From the NCBI GenBank assembly GCA_903876875.1, contig CAIRBT010000166.1, positions 1-42,944 on the forward strand: a stretch of 42,944 nucleotides of DNA, written 5' to 3'. How positions within the stretch are numbered: position 1 is the stretch's first letter; each line of letters begins with the position of its first letter. The stretch comes from an uncultured Geobacteraceae bacterium (GTDB lineage Bacteria > Desulfobacterota > Desulfuromonadia > Geobacterales > Pseudopelobacteraceae). Both the position numbers and the translations under genes were made by a program. Below, one piece after another: positions 1-42,334 of this stretch. Below the pieces are notes generated by a model. That model ran no database searches. It worked only from the letters and a program-made list of their open reading frames with translations, and was not told where the DNA came from.

Positions 1-783
1 AAGGTTTTCTCGGAATGTGTTGCACTGCTTATTATACACCCCCATTTCTATTTGCCACATTTGATATACGTGCTGTGGACAACCGACCTTTGGAGCCATT
101 GGCTTGACTATACTGAACCATTCATGCAGAGCACGGAGAGTAATGAAAGGCGACTTCCGACCAGCCAGGAACATTATCAGACCCTTAATCATCAGATTTT
201 TTTTCGATTGGATGATCTTATGATTGACGATGTAATTTTCTTTCCGACAGCTATCCAGAAATAGACCATCCATTTCTATTACGTGGTGTGCTCCACGACC
301 CCTTATTGGTGACCACTGATAGCTCCGGATAAAATGGAAAGTTTTTTCCGTCCACAGGGTCAGCCGGTCGTCGTGATTTTTTAGGTGAGCAGTAATTTCC
401 GCCAGGACTTCAACAGCATCACGAACAACATGTGTCGTGGAAGAACCCTTGGAAACGCCACAGAATTTACAAAGCTCCCTGTCGGTGGTTGTAATCACAT
501 AGGAGTAGCCAATAACATTTTCATCAATATCCTTAATGTCATTTTTGCGACAATCGCCTGTCATGATTTTGTATTCGTAAAGCTTGATCACTCCAAGAAG
601 AATGGCGGCATCACGGAACGTTGCTCGGGGATTTGTAATTTCAAGAATAAATCCGCCCCGCATATACTTTCTCGTCACCTTAGATTGTTTCAGGTTGAGC
701 GTTTTGAACTCGTAAGACCAAAATGGGTAATGGAGAATGTCGTAATGAACACCGACAATTTCAGGCGTGTATTTTGTGGTCAT
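1..783 (-). CDS. Winged-helix / replication-initiator-like protein, C-terminus off the left edge
   Basis: The frame is open for 261 codons from ATG at 783 down to base 1 with no stop, so the gene is cut by the window edge. The start has a GGAG about 7 bases upstream, and the stop of the preceding gene (789-791) is 5 bases away, so the two are probably co-transcribed. The sequence has the look of tandem winged-helix plasmid initiators. An early LLGVIKLYEYKIMTG stretch precedes RELCKFCGVSKGSST followed by a predicted helix, and near residues 215-240 there is a basic KKNLMIKGLIMFLAGRKSP stretch. Membership in a named Rep family is my inference; I cannot match it to a specific one. Its place inside an integrase-bearing island fits an element-borne replication or regulatory protein. 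An unrelated DNA-binding protein is possible. Confidence 0.6.
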   Translation of the reverse strand, partial: MTTKYTPEIVGVHYDILHYPFWSYEFKTLNLKQSKVTRKYMRGGFILEITNPRATFRDAAILLGVIKLYEYKIMTGDCRKNDIKDIDENVIGYSYVITTTDRELCKFCGVSKGSSTTHVVRDAVEVLAEITAHLKNHDDRLTLWTEKTFHFIRSYQWSPIRGRGAHHVIEMDGLFLDSCRKENYIVNHKIIQSKKNLMIKGLIMFLAGRKSPFITLRALHEWFSIVKPMAPKVGCPQHVYQMWQIEMGVYNKQCNTFRENL

Positions 784-788
784 AATAT

Positions 789-1649
789 TTATCTCCGTGC
801 TTCTGGGCGTCTTTTTTGGCGATATGGATTTGGTAGAAACGGAAAATCCGTCATAAAATCAAACTTCGGATGCTCAACCTTTTTAGGTTTCACGGGCAAT
901 GCCATCATCACCTTAAATGGTTGAACCGCTGGCACCGGAACTATTGCAACATGTGAAAGGGTAGGGGTAACAGGTTCCGCTGGCATTGGTTCAGGTATAG
1001 TTGCCAGGGTAGCTCGATATTTGGCGACAAGCTCTTCAACTGGTATATCGTATTCCGGTTGAAGGGGAGTATTCATTGACCCGTCAAGGTTGTAATAGAC
1101 CGTGTGGTAACAGACATCCAGAATACCGGCGACTTCTTTAATTTCATATCCGTACCGAACAAGCTCGACTATTTTTAGCGCAAATGGTTTGTTCTGCAGT
1201 ATCCGGTAAATCCGTTCGATGTCGGAATTGACTATCTGCGTTTCAACATCTTCAGTAAATCCCAGCGCTTTTATGCAATCATTGTCATCAATAAAATCGT
1301 CAATTGATACAGTTTTAATCGTTCGTGCCGATTTCATTTCGTCCAATTGGAGATTTTCTTCAGTAGTCCGGTCAAGTTTATTTTCCAGCATTCGTTGAGG
1401 TTTAGTTTTCCTGCGGATAATCCACATTTTTTCCGCACGGCTATGAACGCTGTTCAAGATTACTTCATAAGCTGGGTCAGGGGATTTGTCGCAATCGTTA
1501 TGCTTACACAAATGAGTAAACGTATTAAGCGCCAGATCATACTGCTTTTCAGGATCAAGCCAGCCATAATGGTTGCCGACAATAATCTTTGCCATTTTAA
1601 TAATCCGGTCACATTGTGACGCCGAAAATCTGCATACGTTGTTGTTCAT
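789..1649 (-). CDS. Helix-turn-helix protein with proline-rich tail, unknown function
   Basis: This gene encodes 286 residues. The start ATG has GGAG 7 bases upstream. Residues about 150-190 (KIVELVRYGYEIKEVAGIL then DVCYHTVYYNL) resemble a sigma-70 region 4 or transposase-type helix-turn-helix. The N-terminal 100 residues are helical and rich in charged residues and Cys/His. After residue about 205 the protein becomes rich in Pro, Val and Ala and then ends in a basic tail (KRRPEARR). No enzyme motif is visible. It sits between the integrase and the initiator-like gene, which starts 5 bases past its stop, so I infer an island-encoded DNA-binding protein. The family is not recognised. Confidence 0.6.
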   Translation of the reverse strand: MNNNVCRFSASQCDRIIKMAKIIVGNHYGWLDPEKQYDLALNTFTHLCKHNDCDKSPDPAYEVILNSVHSRAEKMWIIRRKTKPQRMLENKLDRTTEENLQLDEMKSARTIKTVSIDDFIDDNDCIKALGFTEDVETQIVNSDIERIYRILQNKPFALKIVELVRYGYEIKEVAGILDVCYHTVYYNLDGSMNTPLQPEYDIPVEELVAKYRATLATIPEPMPAEPVTPTLSHVAIVPVPAVQPFKVMMALPVKPKKVEHPKFDFMTDFPFLPNPYRQKRRPEARR

Positions 1650-1941
1650 GACATTACTCCGGTATCAATTCCGGATGCGTTCCAGAACGATAGGGAGTAA
1701 TCAGCAACATTAATACCAATTTATAATACCAGCGGTGACACCGTGAGAATAATTAATAGTGCAATTCAAATAAATGCTTTGAGTGTCGTTAATTGGCTGT
1801 GAAGTTGACGGGAAATGTCACTGCGGTGGTGTTCAAGTTGAATGGGTGGGGATAGGGACCCAGAATAGAAAACTTGGGGAGGCGAATCGAAATAATAACA
1901 GTCCGCCCCCCTAAATCAGTTTCTTGCCCTTATAGAAAAGA

Positions 1942-3408
1942 CTATTGCTCTCGATTATCTTCTCGGGGCTGTTCAATAGGGTGTATTTCAACAAAATCAT
2001 AATCGATATAACCCTCTAAATCCTCAATCTTTGTAATTTCATTCCGAACTGAGATCCAATCAAGCTGATTAATGTAGAGTTCATTTAGAATGTTTTTCAA
2101 CATTCTAAAATCGTCACTATCAGTGTAGACGGTGTTTGTCATATTAATATTTTCGACGTTACGATGTCCCGCCAAGTAGCTGACAAAATGTTCTTTTACA
2201 TATGGCAGCTTATTCAAATACGTAATAAAATTATGACGGAAACTGTGAAACGTTTTTCTTTCGTCGTTAGTCACTTTTCGGATATATCCACGAGAAGCCC
2301 AGTTTGTGAAATCGTGCGAAAACGACTCACCATTTTTGCGTGGAGTAATTTGATAAAACAATTGAGTATGACCGGCTTTTTTTATTACTTGCGCATATTT
2401 GGCAAGTCCAAGTTCGACTAAAAACGGATGCAAAGGCAAAGTTCTAATATTCTCGCCTTTCACATGGCGACCGCCAGGCTCGTCTTCAAACGTTATCGTT
2501 ATGCAGGGTTCGCCCTTGTTAATAAATATTTCATCAGACCGAAGTTGACATGCCTCTCCAGCACGAATACCGTGACACATCGCTATGAGTGGTACCCATA
2601 ATCGCTCTGGATATTTTGGCTGCCAACGTATGAGGTCTATTAATTTCTGCACCTCTTCAATATCAAATTGAGTTCTCTTTTTACCACCACGTTTAGACCG
2701 TTTCGGGAAGACTGCACTGTCAAAAAGATGTCCAAGTTTTGCATCAGTGAAAGCATCTTTAATCCATATAAGATCTTTAATTACGGTGGTTGTTGACTGC
2801 GGTTTTGGTTTTTGATTTTCAAAGGCGGTGTCATTCAGGTTTAATATTTCTTTAACTGACAAATTTTTATACAGCTTAGAACGTGTAATGTTTTTAGGCA
2901 GGACGCATAAAATTTGAATAAGTCTATCTATATCAGCGGGAACTATTTCATCAACGACAGGATTTTCCAATATCTCGCATGCTAGCCATAGAGCATATAC
3001 CGCATCAGCTTCTGTACCAAACCGCCAGACCTTTGCTATCTTGTGGCGTGTGATGTGAGCGTCAAAAAGCTCTTTTAAGCGTTTTTGTGGAGGTGGTGGA
3101 GGTGCTACTATGGCTACAACGGATTGGGCGGGCTTGGCTTGCTCAGGATAAACGTATTTCACAACCATTCTTTCCTTAAAGTCGTGGTCGTTATCTTCGT
3201 GACGACAATCATAAAAAACTTTATTGATCCGGACATCCCAAACCTGAGCAGCTTCTTGTGCTGCTCTTCTTGCTTTGGCTGAGCCATCATCGGTAATAAA
3301 TAAGCTTTTGAGTATCTCATGACCCTTGAAATATTTTTTATAGAGGTCAACCGGAACTCGTCGTCTATAATAATATTTTCCATCTCTTGAACGCAAACAG
3401 CCCTGCAT
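1942..3408 (-). CDS. Tyrosine recombinase / phage-type integrase of the tRNA-linked island
   Basis: This is a site-specific tyrosine recombinase of 488 residues. An N-terminal arm-binding-like region (RDGKYYYRRRVP) precedes a core-binding domain and the catalytic domain. The catalytic set appears complete: Arg in CHGIRAGEACQL, a beta-hairpin Lys in GGRHVKGENIRTL, HSFRHNF, then LAGHRN and the nucleophile Tyr in NTVYTDSD. The frame also opens at a TTG at 3471, but the ATG at 3408 has a strong GGAGG six bases upstream, so I chose it. The gene begins 95 bases from the 3' end of the tRNA gene and reads away from it, the usual arrangement for an integrase of an element inserted in a tRNA. It would excise or integrate the element extending off the left edge. 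Confidence 0.93.
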   Translation of the reverse strand: MQGCLRSRDGKYYYRRRVPVDLYKKYFKGHEILKSLFITDDGSAKARRAAQEAAQVWDVRINKVFYDCRHEDNDHDFKERMVVKYVYPEQAKPAQSVVAIVAPPPPPQKRLKELFDAHITRHKIAKVWRFGTEADAVYALWLACEILENPVVDEIVPADIDRLIQILCVLPKNITRSKLYKNLSVKEILNLNDTAFENQKPKPQSTTTVIKDLIWIKDAFTDAKLGHLFDSAVFPKRSKRGGKKRTQFDIEEVQKLIDLIRWQPKYPERLWVPLIAMCHGIRAGEACQLRSDEIFINKGEPCITITFEDEPGGRHVKGENIRTLPLHPFLVELGLAKYAQVIKKAGHTQLFYQITPRKNGESFSHDFTNWASRGYIRKVTNDERKTFHSFRHNFITYLNKLPYVKEHFVSYLAGHRNVENINMTNTVYTDSDDFRMLKNILNELYINQLDWISVRNEITKIEDLEGYIDYDFVEIHPIEQPREDNREQ

Positions 3409-3420
3409 AATGACCTCCGT

Positions 3421-3442
3421 CTGTGTGTCAGACTGTGTGTCA
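3421..3442. repeat. Tandem 10-bp direct repeats ahead of the integrase
   Basis: CTGTGTGTCA occurs at 3421-3430 and again at 3433-3442, a 12-bp period. The pair lies just upstream of the integrase ribosome binding site (3413-3417). It could be a binding site for an excisionase or repressor, or simply a chance repeat; if the TTG start were used it would be coding. Confidence 0.5.
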
Positions 3443-3502
3443 ATCGCAGGGCTTGTAATTTCACTTGTCAAAATAGCAGTCCTCTCAACAAGTTATGCGT
3501 AT

Positions 3503-3579
3503 TGGTGGCGGTGCAGAGATTTGAACTCCGGACCTAGCGAATATGAGTCGCTTGCTCTGACCAGCTGAGCTACACCGCC
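3503..3579 (-). tRNA. tRNA with CAT anticodon, probably elongator Met; island insertion site
   Basis: This is a 77-nt cloverleaf. It has a perfect 7-bp acceptor stem (GGCGGTG with CACCGCC), an anticodon stem AGCGA/TCGCT around the loop CTCATAT, a T stem CGGAG/CTCTG that contains one G·U pair, and an encoded CCA. The CAT anticodon fits elongator Met or tRNA-Ile2. The acceptor lacks the C4-G69/C5-G68 pairs described for E. coli lysidine-modified Ile2, so Met is more likely. Base 38 is T where A is usual. The integrase next to the 3' end implies that the tRNA 3' part is the attachment core. Confidence 0.9.
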
Positions 3580-3612
3580 GTGTAAAAGAATCCTTAGTTG
3601 AACGGAATCGAC

Positions 3613-3641
3613 TAATTACCCTATCTGGTTCTAATTGTCAA
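3613..3641 (-). promoter_or_regulatory. Sigma-70 promoter of the CAT tRNA
   Basis: A perfect -35 TTGACA (complement of 3636-3641) is followed after 17 bases by TAATTA (3613-3618). Transcription would begin near 3606, about 27 bases before the tRNA. Confidence 0.65.
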
Positions 3642-3679
3642 TAAAAAACAGAGTTCCCGGTGGTCAAAATGTCGGACAG

Positions 3680-4051
3680 CTACCACGTCTGGGTGACGGA
3701 ATCAATGGCAACGACCATGGAAGCCCGCAGCCATGCAAACTTCTCCTTGAGCAGATCAAAGTCGGGACCGCTTGTCACAAACTGGGCACTCCCCTTGATG
3801 AGAAAACCGGCACCCGGTCCGTGGAGCCCCGTAACCTTACTGCTCCCTAAGGTGATCAGCACATGGGGATTGAACGCGCAATTTGCCTCGGTATGGTGCA
3901 TGTAACCAGCGGGAATCAGCAGTTTGCCGTCTTCTGAAATTTTAAGGTAACTGTTCCACGTGTTGACCATGTGGGGACCCTCCGGTCCTGTGGTGGCGAT
4001 GGCTACTACTCCATCCTGCTTCATAACCTCTTGTAGTGCTTCTGGAACCAT
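3680..4051 (-). CDS. FMN-binding protein, pyridoxamine 5'-phosphate oxidase-like split barrel
   Basis: This gene encodes 123 residues, almost the same length as the 122-residue FMN-binding protein of Desulfovibrio vulgaris, which it resembles along its whole length. Shared blocks include GVVAIATTGPEGPHMVNTWNS, an HHTEAN segment, LITLGSSKV, and GPGAGFLIKGSA. These form the split barrel and the flavin phosphate-binding loop. It is cytoplasmic, and its role is probably electron transfer or flavin-dependent reduction; the physiological partner is unknown. It lies 55 bases downstream of a flavodoxin-fold gene on the same strand, so the two flavin proteins may be co-expressed. Confidence 0.9.
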   Translation of the reverse strand: MVPEALQEVMKQDGVVAIATTGPEGPHMVNTWNSYLKISEDGKLLIPAGYMHHTEANCAFNPHVLITLGSSKVTGLHGPGAGFLIKGSAQFVTSGPDFDLLKEKFAWLRASMVVAIDSVTQTW

Positions 4052-22981: not shown

Positions 22982-24229
22982 CTATTTTGACATTGAGTCA
23001 AGAAAAGACTGGTTGGTCTTGGCTTCCGAGAGCTTGTCCAGGAGGAACTCCATGCTGTCCACCACGTTCATCGGGTGGATTACTTTGCGGAGAATCCAGA
23101 TGCGATTCAGTGAGGCACGCTCCACCAGCAGCTCTTCCTTACGGGTGCCGGACTTGTTGATATCAATGGCCGGGAAGGTGCGCTTTTCAACCAGTTTACG
23201 ATCAAGGTGCAGCTCCATGTTGCCGGTTCCCTTGAACTCTTCAAAGATAACCTCATCCATTTTACTACCGGTATCAACCAGTGCGGTGGCGATGATGGTC
23301 AGGGAGCCCCCCTCTTCGATATTACGCGCCGCACCAAAGAAGCGTTTCGGCTTTTGCAGGGCGTTAGCATCCACACCACCGGTGAGAATTTTGCCCGATG
23401 GTGGCAATACGGTATTATAGGCTCGGGCCAGACGGGTAATGGAGTCAAGAAGAATGACCACATCCTTTTTATGTTCAACCAGTCGCTTGGCCTTTTCAAT
23501 AACCATTTCAGCAATCTGCACGTGGCGGGTTGCCGGTTCGTCAAAGGTTGAAGAGACCACTTCGCCATTAACCGACCGCTGCATATCGGTAACCTCTTCA
23601 GGCCGCTCGTCAATCAGCAGTACGATGAGGTAAACTTCAGGGTGGTTGGCTGCGATGGAGTTGGCTATATTCTGGATCAGTACGGTCTTGCCGGTACGGG
23701 GTGGTGCCACAATCAGGCCGCGCTGCCCTTTACCGATGGGGGCGACCAGTTCGATCACGCGCATCGGCATATTGTCCGGGGTGGTTTCCAGGGTGAGTTT
23801 CTCCTGGGGGTAGAGCGGTGTCAGGTTGTCAAAGAGGATCTTGTCACGGGCAATTTCCGGTGATTCATGGTTGACCGACTCCACCTTGAGCAGGGCAAAA
23901 TAGCGTTCACCCTCTTTAGGGGGTCTGATCTGTCCCGAGACTGTGTCGCCGGTGCGCAGGTTAAAGCGTCTGATCTGGCTGGGGGAGACGTAAATGTCAT
24001 CGGGACCCGGCAGATAGTTGTAGTCGGTTGCCCGGAGAAAGCCGAAGCCGTCCTGAAGCGTTTCCAGAACTCCTTCGCCAAAAATGGAACCGTTCTGTTC
24101 CGTCTGGGCGTTCAGGATGGCAAAAATGAGATCCTGCTTGCGGAGGCTCGAAGCCCCTTCAATGTTAAGATCCCGGGCAATGGTGTTAAGATCGCTGATT
24201 TTTTTACCTTTAAGCTCTTGTAGATTCAT
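22982..24229 (-). CDS. rho: Transcription termination factor Rho
   Basis: This gene encodes 415 residues, close to the E. coli length. The N-terminal domain ([20 protein letters not shown]) is followed by the cold-shock/OB RNA-binding domain ([22 protein letters not shown]). The ATPase has Walker [10 protein letters not shown] at about residues 174-182, Walker [17 protein letters not shown], and [25 protein letters not shown]. It is a hexameric RNA helicase that ends transcription. AGGAG lies five bases before the ATG. A leader of up to about 250 bases precedes it, consistent with autogenous control known for rho in other bacteria. Confidence 0.98.
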
Positions 24230-25417: not shown

Positions 25418-26407
25418 ATGAATACTAACAGAGTTGCAGAAGGAATACAATTGGTACCGTCTTTACTACCCACTGACGTAAAGCACTCCTGGGAACCTCG
25501 CAGCAGTTTTGTGGCTCGGCAGGCCTGGGCACTTGCTACCGCTCTCTATTCCGGGGAGTCACCCGCCGAATTGTTCAAACAGCAGTTTCGCTGGGCTTTT
25601 TGCGCTACCCTGCATGCACAGGCGATTTATGGGTGGTTTCAGGCTCTTCAGAAGCCGGAAATGCAGCTGTTTGCCGAGTTGAACCCAGGACTGATGTTGA
25701 AGCCGCTGCGTGTGTATGTGTCGGTTCGGTGGAGTATTAACCGGAAAATAAAAATAATGACCGATACCTACGCCTTTATACGTACGCACCGTGCGCTACT
25801 TGATGCCCTGGTGCGTCCGGACGGCATTACTCTGGCTCAATTCGATATTGCTGACTATGCGGGGGTTCGCGTGGTTCTTGATTACGACAACCGCTATCGG
25901 AAAGAGGGGGAACTGGTGGTATCCCTTTACCATGAGGCGTTAGGCGGGCCGGTAATAGCCCTGGCGTTTGCCCTGGAGCGGCTGCAGAATGGAGAGTGGG
26001 CCATGTACATCGGCTGCATTCAGGGGTTAAGCGGTGTTGACAACAAAAGTATTTCAAAGGCTATGCACGGGCTCTGGCCGAAAATATTTATTGTCTCTGC
26101 CGCCCAGGAGATCGCCCGGAAACTCGGTGTCAGTCATGTGTACGGAATCAGTGACGCAATCCACTCTCACCGCAAGAAGAGGTTGGTCTATATCCCGTCT
26201 CGCCATGCGCTGGCCTTTGATTATAATGGTCTTTGGGAGGAGGTTGGCGGAGTTGCCGCCCGTGAAGGGTGGTATGAACTTCCTCTCACCATGGAACGCC
26301 GCCCTTACGAAGAGATGAAATCCAACAAAAGAGCGATGTATAAACGACGTTACGCACTGCTTGATGACATATCGGAGCAGTTGGGCACCGCATTGCAACA
26401 TTCCTGA
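25418..26407 (+). CDS. DUF535 (VirK/YbjX family) protein
   Basis: This gene encodes 329 residues. FVARQAWALATALYS at the N-terminus, then YHEALGGPVIALAFALER, EWAMYIGCIQGLSGVDN, and the C-terminal KSNKRAMYKRRYALLDDISEQL match the DUF535 pattern, as in VirK of Shigella and YbjX of Salmonella. Those proteins are linked to virulence-protein export and outer-membrane lipid modification; the biochemistry is unknown. The gene converges with a second DUF535 gene across 24 bases, and the two share the C-terminal KSxKRxxYxxR block, so they are diverged paralogs in inverted orientation. Both adjoin the LPS cluster, supporting an envelope role. Confidence 0.85.
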   Translation: MNTNRVAEGIQLVPSLLPTDVKHSWEPRSSFVARQAWALATALYSGESPAELFKQQFRWAFCATLHAQAIYGWFQALQKPEMQLFAELNPGLMLKPLRVYVSVRWSINRKIKIMTDTYAFIRTHRALLDALVRPDGITLAQFDIADYAGVRVVLDYDNRYRKEGELVVSLYHEALGGPVIALAFALERLQNGEWAMYIGCIQGLSGVDNKSISKAMHGLWPKIFIVSAAQEIARKLGVSHVYGISDAIHSHRKKRLVYIPSRHALAFDYNGLWEEVGGVAAREGWYELPLTMERRPYEEMKSNKRAMYKRRYALLDDISEQLGTALQHS

Positions 26408-26431
26408 CGATCCAACCGCGTTTACTTCCCT

Positions 26432-27331
26432 TTATCCTTCCTTCAGGGCGTTTTTTAGTACCCCGCCGACGCTTGCATCAAAATCGTCGAACATGGCAAA
26501 ACGCTTCCGGTACTGACTTCGCTTACTTGATTTAATTTCTTCGATGTTTTTTTGCGGTTCAACCTTGTCGAGTTCGAAAAAGCGGGGGTCTGGCAACAGA
26601 TTCCCGCCGGTTTCTGACCAGAACTTGTCAAAGGAGGTTTTAACTTTCTTGTCGAGTCGGACATGGTTGTTTGTATGGTGTCCTCCGTCGGAAACAGCGA
26701 AAATGCGGTCAATTTTAAGCTGCAGAGCCAGCTGCCGGACGGCACGCAGAATGAGATTTTTGGGGCGGTAGCCATTGAAGTGTTTGCCCAGGGCACCGAG
26801 CAGTGGCAGCCCCTCCTCAATCCCCTGCAGGGCTCCTATGTGAAGTGACCTGCTACCATCCGCCGCTTCGTCAAGCCAGAAATCAATGTGATACAACCTG
26901 GTTTCACCCAGGTTGAGGGACATAACCATCACCCCTTCTTTTTTCAGGCTGCTGTTGAAGAGAAGGCGAAAAGACAGGGTGTCATCCTGAAAAGGCTCGC
27001 TCCAGATGGTCATGCCACCCTGCAGGTAGATCTGACGGAACGCTTCTTCGGTAAAAGTGGTTGTGCAAAACTGGAGGTGCTTGATGATCAAGTTCACCCG
27101 TTCGGCCGGTGTGGAACCACGATAGAAAAACTGACGGGTCGCCTGTTCGTAGACACAGGGGTGGGTTTCGGAAAATACTTGCAGGAGCGGTGATGACGCC
27201 AAAAAAGTGGTCAGGTGGCGAAGTTGGCCATGGTTCATCCGGGCTCTGACAATAAAAACGGAAAAACGCCAGTAGTCGATCACTTTTTTCATGCGAAACA
27301 ATCGACCGGCGACATGAGAATACGAGGTCAT
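26432..27331 (-). CDS. DUF535 (VirK/YbjX family) protein, second copy
   Basis: This gene encodes 299 residues. Shared blocks with the convergent neighbour include LYHIDFWLDEAADGSRSLHIGALQG (the counterpart of the 'IGCIQG' block), DRIFAVSDGGHH, and KSSKRSQYRKRFAMFDDFDASV. No signal peptide or membrane helix is seen, so it is probably cytoplasmic or peripheral. TTGGAG precedes the ATG by five bases. The gene is the last of the minus-strand polysaccharide gene string, 74 bases after the GT25 gene, with a strong hairpin in that gap. Confidence 0.85.
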   Translation of the reverse strand: MTSYSHVAGRLFRMKKVIDYWRFSVFIVRARMNHGQLRHLTTFLASSPLLQVFSETHPCVYEQATRQFFYRGSTPAERVNLIIKHLQFCTTTFTEEAFRQIYLQGGMTIWSEPFQDDTLSFRLLFNSSLKKEGVMVMSLNLGETRLYHIDFWLDEAADGSRSLHIGALQGIEEGLPLLGALGKHFNGYRPKNLILRAVRQLALQLKIDRIFAVSDGGHHTNNHVRLDKKVKTSFDKFWSETGGNLLPDPRFFELDKVEPQKNIEEIKSSKRSQYRKRFAMFDDFDASVGGVLKNALKEG

Positions 27332-27356
27332 TTATACTCCAAAGTAATAATCGGCA

Positions 27357-27408
27357 TGGCTGTGTACCAAGACAATACCGGGTGCGGTATTGTCTTGGTA
27401 CACAGTCA
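27357..27408. repeat. Perfect 21-bp inverted repeat (hairpin) between GT25 and DUF535 genes
   Basis: Arms at 27360-27380 and 27385-27405 are exact reverse complements (CTGTGTACCAAGACAATACC, plus one more G-C pair) with a 4-base loop. It begins next to the stop codon of the GT25 gene (27406-27408). There is no T run after it on either strand, so it is not a standard intrinsic terminator. Confidence 0.9.
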
Positions 27409-28146
27409 GCGGAACAGACGGGTTATATACATTTTTACGAACTTCTGACTGAGCCAGCGAAATCGGCGTATGGTGCCATTGTTTCTTATTGAGATAGATG
27501 ATGCTAATGTGCCGTTGAAGGAACCCTGCTCGGTAAGCGGTGGGTGAGCCCAGTACATTTTCAAGGCTCCCTTCTGTACCATGATGTTATGCCACCAATC
27601 AATAACAACATGACATTTGTTGATCTTAAGGTCATCGAGCATGATCTGTGCCGCTTTACGGTCAATCAGGTAAGCACCGGCACAGCGCCCTTTGGTGGCT
27701 CTGTAGAGAAATTTCCCTTTTTTGACATTTCGCCAGGGGGGGAAAAGCAGGGTAGAATTTTCCAGGGATATGATGAAGCCCTCTTCCAGTTGTTCCGCTT
27801 CCTGCGCCACTAACGCAATATTTTCCAGAAACTTTTTACCGATGAAACAGATATCATTTTCAAAGATGATGGCAAATCTATCATTGTTACTGAGAATCTT
27901 CTCGTAGATACGGAAATGCACCAGTGTGCAGTATGTGCTGCCTTTCTGAAGATTCTTTTTGATCTCCGGCTCAAAGTATTTCTCAAGCCAGGCATCGTTC
28001 TCAACCTGGTCAGCCGATTCGGTAACCAGCTCATATTCAAGACCATGCTGGGTCAAGAGCAGCTCTTTCATGAGTGGTTCCCGCGCTTCGTAGCCACTGA
28101 TGCCGTGGACAATGTAAATATGGTCGATGGAGGTGCCGGGGATCAT
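27406..28146 (-). CDS. Glycosyltransferase family 25 (LPS biosynthesis)
   Basis: This gene encodes 246 residues. IDHIYIVHGISGYEAR opens the protein, RFAIIFENDICFIGKKF replaces the usual EDD metal-binding loop with END, and CAGAYLIDRKAAQIML with KCHVVIDWWHN completes the GT25 pattern. It transfers a hexose, often galactose, to lipooligosaccharide cores. The open frame starts six bases earlier, but the ATG at 28146 overlaps the upstream stop codon (ATGA) and has AGGAG eight bases ahead. A perfect hairpin follows immediately. Confidence 0.85.
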   Translation of the reverse strand: MIPGTSIDHIYIVHGISGYEAREPLMKELLLTQHGLEYELVTESADQVENDAWLEKYFEPEIKKNLQKGSTYCTLVHFRIYEKILSNNDRFAIIFENDICFIGKKFLENIALVAQEAEQLEEGFIISLENSTLLFPPWRNVKKGKFLYRATKGRCAGAYLIDRKAAQIMLDDLKINKCHVVIDWWHNIMVQKGALKMYWAHPPLTEQGSFNGTLASSISIRNNGTIRRFRWLSQKFVKMYITRLFR

Positions 28147-28967
28147 GGGCATGTCTCCTGATTGTTCTCAACCGCTATCGTTTCTGTGACTATACCACAA
28201 GAACAGCGGAATGTCTGGGAAACCACTGTTTCTACGAGAATACGGTCATTTTCGGCCAGATTATCACGGTTATTTGCCGGGTGCCAGAGATGGAACAACA
28301 ATGCAGAAAACGGTAAATCATGTCGTTTGATACCATAGACGAACAGACGAGCGACAAATTCCGAGTCTTCCCGACCCCAGCCAACAAATGCTTCGTTGAA
28401 GCCATTTACTGCTATTGCCACATCTCGATGTAAGGCGAAATTACAGGTTTTGATGCCACGTAGGCCATGTTTTTCCAGTGTGAACCAAGGTATGCGCAGA
28501 AGGTGGTGGGCACCACTAATATTTCTTGCAAGGCAGTGACCAAGGAGATTGAGGCGGGATGTGAAAGAAAATGTATCGGAAACCAGTCTGCCTACCAGCA
28601 TCCGAGTTCCCTGTACGAAATACCCTGATTTGGCACGTGCCCCATGGTCTGCCACGAAATCCCTATGGGGGATGCAATCACCGTCACTGAAAATCAGATA
28701 TTCACCCTGACTGACTTTGATTGCCTCGTTGCGGATCTTTGCTACCCGGAAACCGAGATCTTCATGCCAGACATGCTTTATCGGAAAAGGAGCCATCCGA
28801 CTGAACTCATCAATCACTGTACCAGTGTCTGCCGTGGAGCCGTCATCGGCGACTATCAGTTCCGTGGGGAAAAGGGTCTGTTGGGAATAGGCATAAAGGA
28901 CACGGCACAGGTATGACGGAGCATTATAGGTCGTGATAATTACGGTAATGGTCATTTGCACTGTCAT
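28143..28967 (-). CDS. Glycosyltransferase family 2
   Basis: This gene encodes 274 residues. The GT-A start TVIITTYNAPSYLCRVLYAY binds the nucleotide sugar. EYLIFSDGDCIPHRDFV contains the metal-binding DGD. WGREDSEFVARLFVYG and LFHLWHP with several His residues resemble the galactosyltransferase/chondroitin-type GT2 branch. It is soluble or peripheral on the cytoplasmic membrane face, adding a sugar to a glycolipid; the donor is unknown. An internal ATG (MTITVI) is also a possible start. It lies in the compact operon, three bases after the next gene upstream. Confidence 0.9.
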   Translation of the reverse strand: MTVQMTITVIITTYNAPSYLCRVLYAYSQQTLFPTELIVADDGSTADTGTVIDEFSRMAPFPIKHVWHEDLGFRVAKIRNEAIKVSQGEYLIFSDGDCIPHRDFVADHGARAKSGYFVQGTRMLVGRLVSDTFSFTSRLNLLGHCLARNISGAHHLLRIPWFTLEKHGLRGIKTCNFALHRDVAIAVNGFNEAFVGWGREDSEFVARLFVYGIKRHDLPFSALLFHLWHPANNRDNLAENDRILVETVVSQTFRCSCGIVTETIAVENNQETCP

Positions 28968-41348: not shown

Positions 41349-41586
41349 ATACAGAGGAACCGCAGACGCACGCCGATGAACGCAGAGAACATCTCTAAAA
41401 TCTGATTATCCGGAAAGGTACTATTATGCAGGAACGACTGGTACGATTTGACTGGGCGATGAAGAAGCTGCTGAGAAACAAAGCTAACTATGAAATATTG
41501 GAAGGCTTTCTTTCTGAATTGATTGGACAGGATGTCAAAATCCAGAACATTCTTGAAAGTGAGAGCAATAAACAGAATGCCAAGGA
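41349..41586. repeat. 238-bp direct repeat, copy 1
   Basis: The copy covers an ACAGAGGAACCGCAGACGCA leader and the first 54 codons of the intact Rpn gene. It is nearly identical to copy 2 at 42404-42642. Confidence 0.92.
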
Positions 41587-42334
41587 CAAGCAGAACCGGG
41601 TTGATCTGTTGACTGAAATAGATGGTGGTGAACTGGTATTGATTGAGTTGCAGGTCGAAGGCCAGTACGACTATTTTCACCGGATGCTCTATGGTACAGC
41701 GAAACTGATAACCGACCATATGGATGCGAGCTTCAACTATAATAAAGTGCGTAAGGTTTTATCCATAAATATCGTCTACTTTGACCTTGGTCATGGTGAG
41801 GATTATGTTTATAAAGGTCTTACTGATTTTAGGGGAATCCATAAAAATGATCTTCTGAGCCTGTCCGCTCTGCAGAAAAAAGAATTTACACAATTGAAGG
41901 TGGTCTCAGAGATTTTTCCCGAATACTACATTCTCAAAGTAAATGGCTTTAACGATATTGCTAAAGATACCCTTGATGAGTGGATGTATTTCCTGAAAAA
42001 CTCAGCTATAAAAAGTGAATTCAAGGCAAAAGGTCTGGTAAAGGCTTCAGTCGAACTGGATATCATGAAACTTTCCAAAGAAGATCGTGAAGATTATGAA
42101 AGTTATATAGAAGACCGCCGTATTACGGAGAGTTCTGTAAAAACATCATGGATCGAGGGTAAGATTGAGGGTAAAGCTGAGGGTAAGCTTGAGGGTAAGA
42201 TTGATGGTAAGATTGAAGGTAAGATTGAAGGTAAGATTGAGGTTGGCAAGCGATTGCTGCAGAGAGGGATGAGTGCTGAAGAAGCTGCCGAGGTTGCCGG
42301 GGTGGCTGTGGAGCTGTTGCGGGGGAACCGGTAG
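41426..42334 (+). CDS. Rpn-type recombination-promoting nuclease / PD-(D/E)XK transposase
   Basis: This gene encodes 302 residues. The N-terminus RFDWAMKKLLRNKANYEILEGFLSELIGQDV is the PDDEXK_2/Rpn signature. The nuclease site is RVDLLTEIDGGELVLIELQVEGQYDYFHRML, with D and ExQ catalytic residues. FPEYYILKVNGFND and DTLDEWMYFLKNS follow. Residues about 244-271 are seven EGKI-type 4-residue repeats, then GMSAEEAAEVAGV. Rpn proteins promote recombination and have DNA endonuclease activity; several are toxin- or phage-linked. A truncated second copy follows directly. Confidence 0.92.
   Translation: MQERLVRFDWAMKKLLRNKANYEILEGFLSELIGQDVKIQNILESESNKQNAKDKQNRVDLLTEIDGGELVLIELQVEGQYDYFHRMLYGTAKLITDHMDASFNYNKVRKVLSINIVYFDLGHGEDYVYKGLTDFRGIHKNDLLSLSALQKKEFTQLKVVSEIFPEYYILKVNGFNDIAKDTLDEWMYFLKNSAIKSEFKAKGLVKASVELDIMKLSKEDREDYESYIEDRRITESSVKTSWIEGKIEGKAEGKLEGKIDGKIEGKIEGKIEVGKRLLQRGMSAEEAAEVAGVAVELLRGNR
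42155..42238 (+). repeat. Seven tandem 12-bp repeats inside the Rpn gene
   Basis: GAGGGTAAGATT and variants repeat seven times and encode EGKI, EGKA, EGKL, EGKI, DGKI, EGKI, EGKI. Because the unit is a multiple of three, copy-number changes would alter length without frameshift. Confidence 0.9.

Follow-up and report, generated by a model that had tools for sequence, protein, structure and literature searches.

A perfect 21-bp hairpin at the GT25 stop codon: a candidate intercistronic mRNA 3'-end stabilizer or processing hairpin in a putative polysaccharide gene cluster of an uncultured Geobacteraceae bacterium

The hairpin described here lies in a 42,944-nucleotide stretch of DNA from an uncultured Geobacteraceae bacterium (the window, meaning the whole stretch that was analyzed), between the gene of a GT25-family glycosyltransferase and a DUF535 gene (Table 1). 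These two are the thirteenth and the last of 14 co-directional minus-strand genes, which run from 41197 down to 26432. The run looks like a polysaccharide cluster of the LPS or O-antigen type, judging from four genes checked against Pfam (GT25, DUF535, and two family-2 glycosyltransferases) and from the translations of the others. The hairpin fills the largest intergenic gap of the run, which measures 74 bp, while the other spacings range from -14 to 58 bp. Beyond the end of the run, a second DUF535 gene (25418-26407, plus strand) converges on the first; the two are 26% identical, and their ends are 24 bp apart. Elsewhere in the window, positions 1-4000 form a low-GC end (about 43%, against 46-59% in the rest) that carries a tyrosine integrase with DUF6538 (1942-3471) and may be an integrated element, and a 12-bp tandem repeat of 7.7 copies (42151-42242) is located toward the end of a transposase-like gene of the PDDEXK_2 type (41426-42334).

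Table 1. Features of the hairpin locus and related genes
Feature	Position	Strand	Basis
Perfect 21-bp stem with 4-nt loop	27360..27405	(-), the sense strand of the genes	Inverted-repeat search and sequence reading
GT25-family glycosyltransferase gene	27406..28152	(-)	PF01755, 7.9e-11
DUF535 gene, last of the co-directional run	26432..27331	(-)	PF04393, 1.3e-63
DUF535 Shine-Dalgarno-like GGAG (27340-27337) and start codon (27331-27329)	27329..27340	(-)	Sequence reading
Gap to the convergent second DUF535 gene, 24 bp	26408..26431		No terminator-like hairpin listed on either strand
rho gene	22982-24229		Named by reading the sequence
RNase III gene (rnc)	G000:C191:2536-3189		220 bits vs cut-off 166.25

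When one mismatch is allowed, the stem grows to 24 bp and spans 27357-27408, with 24-nt arms (27357-27380 and 27385-27408) that are 96% complementary and spaced by 4 nt. Among the nine inverted repeats listed for the window (copies no more than 60 bases from each other), no near-perfect pair is longer. The GT25 stop codon TGA (27406-27408, minus strand) forms the foot of this 24-bp form. A sequence-only reading of the locus had described a perfect 21-bp hairpin with a 4-base loop directly after the stop codon. Its description of the stem and loop was borne out, while the placement needs a correction: the span it quoted, 27357-27408, is the 24-bp form, in which the stop codon is itself the foot, and the perfect stem begins at the next base. 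Folded as RNA, the 52 nt of the minus (sense) strand reach -36.7 kcal/mol (z -9.7), and those of the plus (antisense) strand, where the sole mismatch of the 24-bp stem turns into a G-U pair, reach -42.7 kcal/mol (z -10.6); none of 200 shuffles was as low in either case. On the plus strand, a weak sigma-70-like match (9 of 12) at 27309-27338 stands just before the hairpin, and a promoter there would yield an antisense RNA with this even better fold; such matches are common by chance, with 24 found and 15 expected in the region.

The sequence-only reading had also pointed out that a T run is absent, and this was confirmed on both strands, with 1 T in the 9 bases past the stem. The hairpin was not among the predictions of the terminator scan of the window, and, with no T run in or after the stem, an intrinsic terminator was rejected. 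An Rfam search of the hairpin returned no family at or above its gathering score; the sole match, MIR6019 (21.5 bits against a cut-off of 100, E 0.068), was attributed to a long hairpin matching by chance and rejected as a known RNA family. Assembly fold-back is an unlikely source of the hairpin, as the flanks beyond the 24 bp do not read as mirror images. Toward the next gene, the GGAG lies five bases upstream of the DUF535 start, at a distance of 16 nt from the foot of the 24-bp form and of 19 nt from the 21-bp stem. The long stem thus does not include it, although, when 121 nt are folded, the minimum-energy structure shows a weak pairing between part of the GGAG and the final codons of GT25. 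Ribosomes finishing GT25 would presumably open this pairing, and DUF535 might in addition be translationally coupled to GT25.

A stem of this length is not due to chance. In a 990,031-base sample of the genome searched with loops of 3-10 bases, the longest perfect stem in five first-order Markov copies was 12 bp, whereas the real sample held 11 perfect stems of at least 16 bp (three of 16, four of 17, one of 20, two of 21, and one of 24 bp), that at 27360-27405 included. Long perfect stems are therefore a real feature of this genome, and the present one is among the longest in the sampled quarter of it. A census of the genus covered 2,029,159 bases from five genomes. The own genome, 3,930,294 bases in total, contributed 990,031 of them in 81 loci, the window being one, and four relatives contributed 1,039,128 in 60 loci. 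The census yielded 26 perfect hairpins of at least 16 bp. By a strict rule (5 T of 6 bases), 15 of these carry a T run, compared with 13% of random places, and by a loose rule (at least 4 T among 6 bases close to the end of the stem, on either strand) 23 do, compared with 43%; the random places for both rules were drawn from all DNA, intergenic or not, and intergenic DNA is probably richer in T. Convergent gene pairs flank 13 of the 23. Only three hairpins are T-poor by both rules: that at 27360-27405, another that falls within an open frame (L104:19205-19244), and a third close to the end of its contig, for which no open frame was called on the far side (L145:12346-12387). Among the three, the hairpin at 27360-27405 alone separates two co-directional genes.

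Two further hairpins of the census follow a stop codon closely; the gene distances are rough, as open frames were defined simply by taking the longest frame. The hairpin at L033:6587-6638, perfect over 24 bp and with a loop of 4 nt, stands 1 nt after a stop and 130 bp before the next gene, which we take to encode a hydrogenase small subunit; its T content is 3 of 6 on the sense strand (no run) and 5 of 6 on the antisense strand (a run). In another species, the 17-bp hairpin at L104:15051-15090 stands 1 nt after a stop and 257 bp before the next frame, with 4 T of 6 on the antisense strand. Together with 27360-27405, these are the three examples seen of a candidate class, by which the genus might use long perfect hairpins of unrelated sequence, placed 0-1 nt after stops before co-directional genes and apart from terminators, to fix mRNA 3' ends. 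We consider such a class quite improbable: the antisense strands of the other two examples have T-rich stretches, and the stop-codon-touching hairpins at L153:10135-10172 and L161:1878-1921 lie between convergent genes and are terminator-like. An identical 13-bp perfect hairpin with identical tails occurs at L030:60-88 and at L030:3963-3991, 3.9 kb apart, and is apparently a repeat.

In shape, a palindrome with a short loop could be the remnant of a mobile repeat, such as a REP, a MITE, or joined insertion-sequence ends, and the sequence-only reading had raised a minimal mobile repeat as one meaning, to be checked by a search for other copies of the arm. With a 20-base piece and up to 3 mismatches, this search found the two arms themselves in the own genome and nothing more. 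The 57 relatives gave one single-arm match at 3 mismatches, in G031 (L039), which was taken as chance, compared with two matches for the reversed control. Public collections stayed at chance level as well, with no exact arm match in genome_contigs (21 bases) or viral_contigs (19 bases) and arm matches only at E values of 8-9 in the plasmid and phage collections. On copy number, a mobile repeat was thus rejected, and the remnant reading is largely refuted and hardly tenable. More weight belongs to a neutral origin, in which a replication template switch would have copied one arm from the other in the noncoding gap and left a functionless palindrome that will decay. Template switching is able to create a perfect stem in a single event, according to PMC8794818, and the perfect pairing, which has no wobble pair, suggests a young structure that arose in this way. 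Relatives of GT25 are rare: at E ≤0.001 one was found in 1 of 38 other genomes of the genus (L004, 49-50% identity), at the stricter E of 1e-20 the gene was found in 2 of 244 genomes of the class (the own genome and the same relative), and none was found in genome_contigs. No hairpin was found in the 3.7 kb surrounding the L004 relative, where the following gene overlaps it, so nothing marks the hairpin as an old companion of GT25. The C-termini of the two GT25 proteins align end to end, so the hairpin has not visibly shortened GT25, and truncation by an inserted palindrome was rejected on this ground. DUF535 relatives, found in 10 of 57 other genomes at 26-34% identity, were left out of the conservation comparison. 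The perfect arms, the single copy, and the lack of visible conservation all agree with a neutral palindrome. What speaks against this origin is the exact position of the hairpin, with a natural stop codon on one side and a ribosome-binding site on the other, since functional hairpins are expected at such places; these are, however, also the places where a neutral insert would survive best. On balance, a neutral palindrome is possible, and we hold it to be rather doubtful.

The strong stem at the stop codon might also end the transcript after GT25 as a U-less terminator, and no other terminator-like hairpin stands at the end of the gene run. Such terminators, called I-shaped, have been described as a predicted class (PMC7406221), and they share with our element a hairpin without a U tract near a stop codon. 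The hairpin at 27360-27405 differs in sitting inside a co-directional gene run and not at its end. Against termination at this site, the long hairpins of the genus tend toward T runs, DUF535 follows in the same direction, and for the gap between GT25 and DUF535 no promoter-like site was listed on the minus strand. The foot of the stem is, moreover, the stop codon and lies within reach of the ribosome, given its footprint. Taken together, these points make termination here unlikely. As for a site acting at the DNA level, either a cruciform, as the sequence-only reading had also proposed, or a protein-binding palindrome, the perfect symmetry of the DNA and the even better pairing of the antisense strand would suit it. 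Usual operators are shorter than this near-perfect palindrome of 46 bp, however, the genome holds no second site, and nothing specific favors a cruciform; we therefore regard a DNA-level role as very unlikely.

We favor, at a probability of about 0.5, the reading of the hairpin as an intercistronic mRNA 3'-end stabilizer or processing hairpin of the polysaccharide gene cluster, probably created recently by a template switch. Of the three options raised by the sequence-only reading, a processing or stability element set between the two genes fits best by position and by the missing T run, and the RNA role itself is a prediction. The stem is far beyond chance, occupies the largest gap of the 14-gene run, and is T-less as are only 3 of the 26 long hairpins of the census. 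As in protective hairpins, a stable structure without a U tract follows one gene and precedes another read in the same direction, and the two genes would share a transcript. RNase III substrates are double helices of about two turns, which is roughly the length of the 21-bp stem, and an rnc gene is at hand. In E. coli, the 3' end of 26 of 34 operon segments was described as lying shortly beyond a stable hairpin that lacks a uridine tract, and the protective structures generally lie inside coding regions, that of malE-malF being an intergenic one (PMC5927463). Their mostly coding location, unlike the intergenic 27360-27405, would count against a stabilizer here. With malE-malF and similar operon 3' stabilizers, our element has in common a stable stem after the upstream gene, no U tract, and a co-directional downstream gene. 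The malE-malF elements are REP repeats, whereas the candidate here is a single perfect 21-bp helix of unique sequence.

Two other hairpins bear on the comparison. The galE hairpin of E. coli stops exonuclease once Rho has terminated transcription or RNase E has cut the RNA and, according to the same account (PMC11925234), was shown to fix the RNA 3' end; it too has a 4-nt loop and marks the end of an operon gene, but its 8-bp stem was tested by mutation, whereas ours is a predicted element of 21 bp. The intercistronic rpsO-pnp hairpin is cut by RNase III and has internal loops near the cuts (PMC10126417). Ours is likewise intercistronic, in a genome with an RNase III gene, and its 21-bp stem has no internal loop of the kind described at those sites, which may argue against processing by RNase III.

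According to the favored reading, GT25 and DUF535 would lie within one transcript, and RNA polymerase would pass the hairpin from GT25 into DUF535, because there is no U run. The downstream part would then be cut, or its synthesis terminated by Rho, and 3'-to-5' exonucleases would digest back and halt at the foot of the stem, which would leave the message of GT25 and the upstream genes intact and that of DUF535 less abundant. RNase III may also cut the 21-bp duplex and split the two messages. Since no terminator-like hairpin is listed in the 24-bp gap at the run end, Rho-dependent ending followed by digestion back to the hairpin is a natural hypothesis. What reads as a rho gene is close by, at 22982-24229. 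The observations behind this reading are the hairpin itself, its position at the stop codon, the missing T run, the downstream ribosome-binding site outside the long stem, the run end with no terminator hairpin listed, and the RNase III gene. Several points weigh on the other side. No conservation was seen, the GT25 relative in L004 appearing to have no hairpin nearby and an overlapping next gene; a perfect stem with neither G-U pair nor bulge exceeds what the job needs; and the predicted antisense fold is better than the sense fold, contrary to what selection on the sense RNA alone would be expected to give.

The hairpin is a real element of a known kind and of modest interest, and neither of the meanings proposed for it would surprise a specialist. 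If the mechanism holds, the hairpin would tune the amount of DUF535 relative to the glycosyltransferases made from one mRNA. It also offers a clean natural case for asking whether the perfect stems that template switching makes come to serve as RNA elements.
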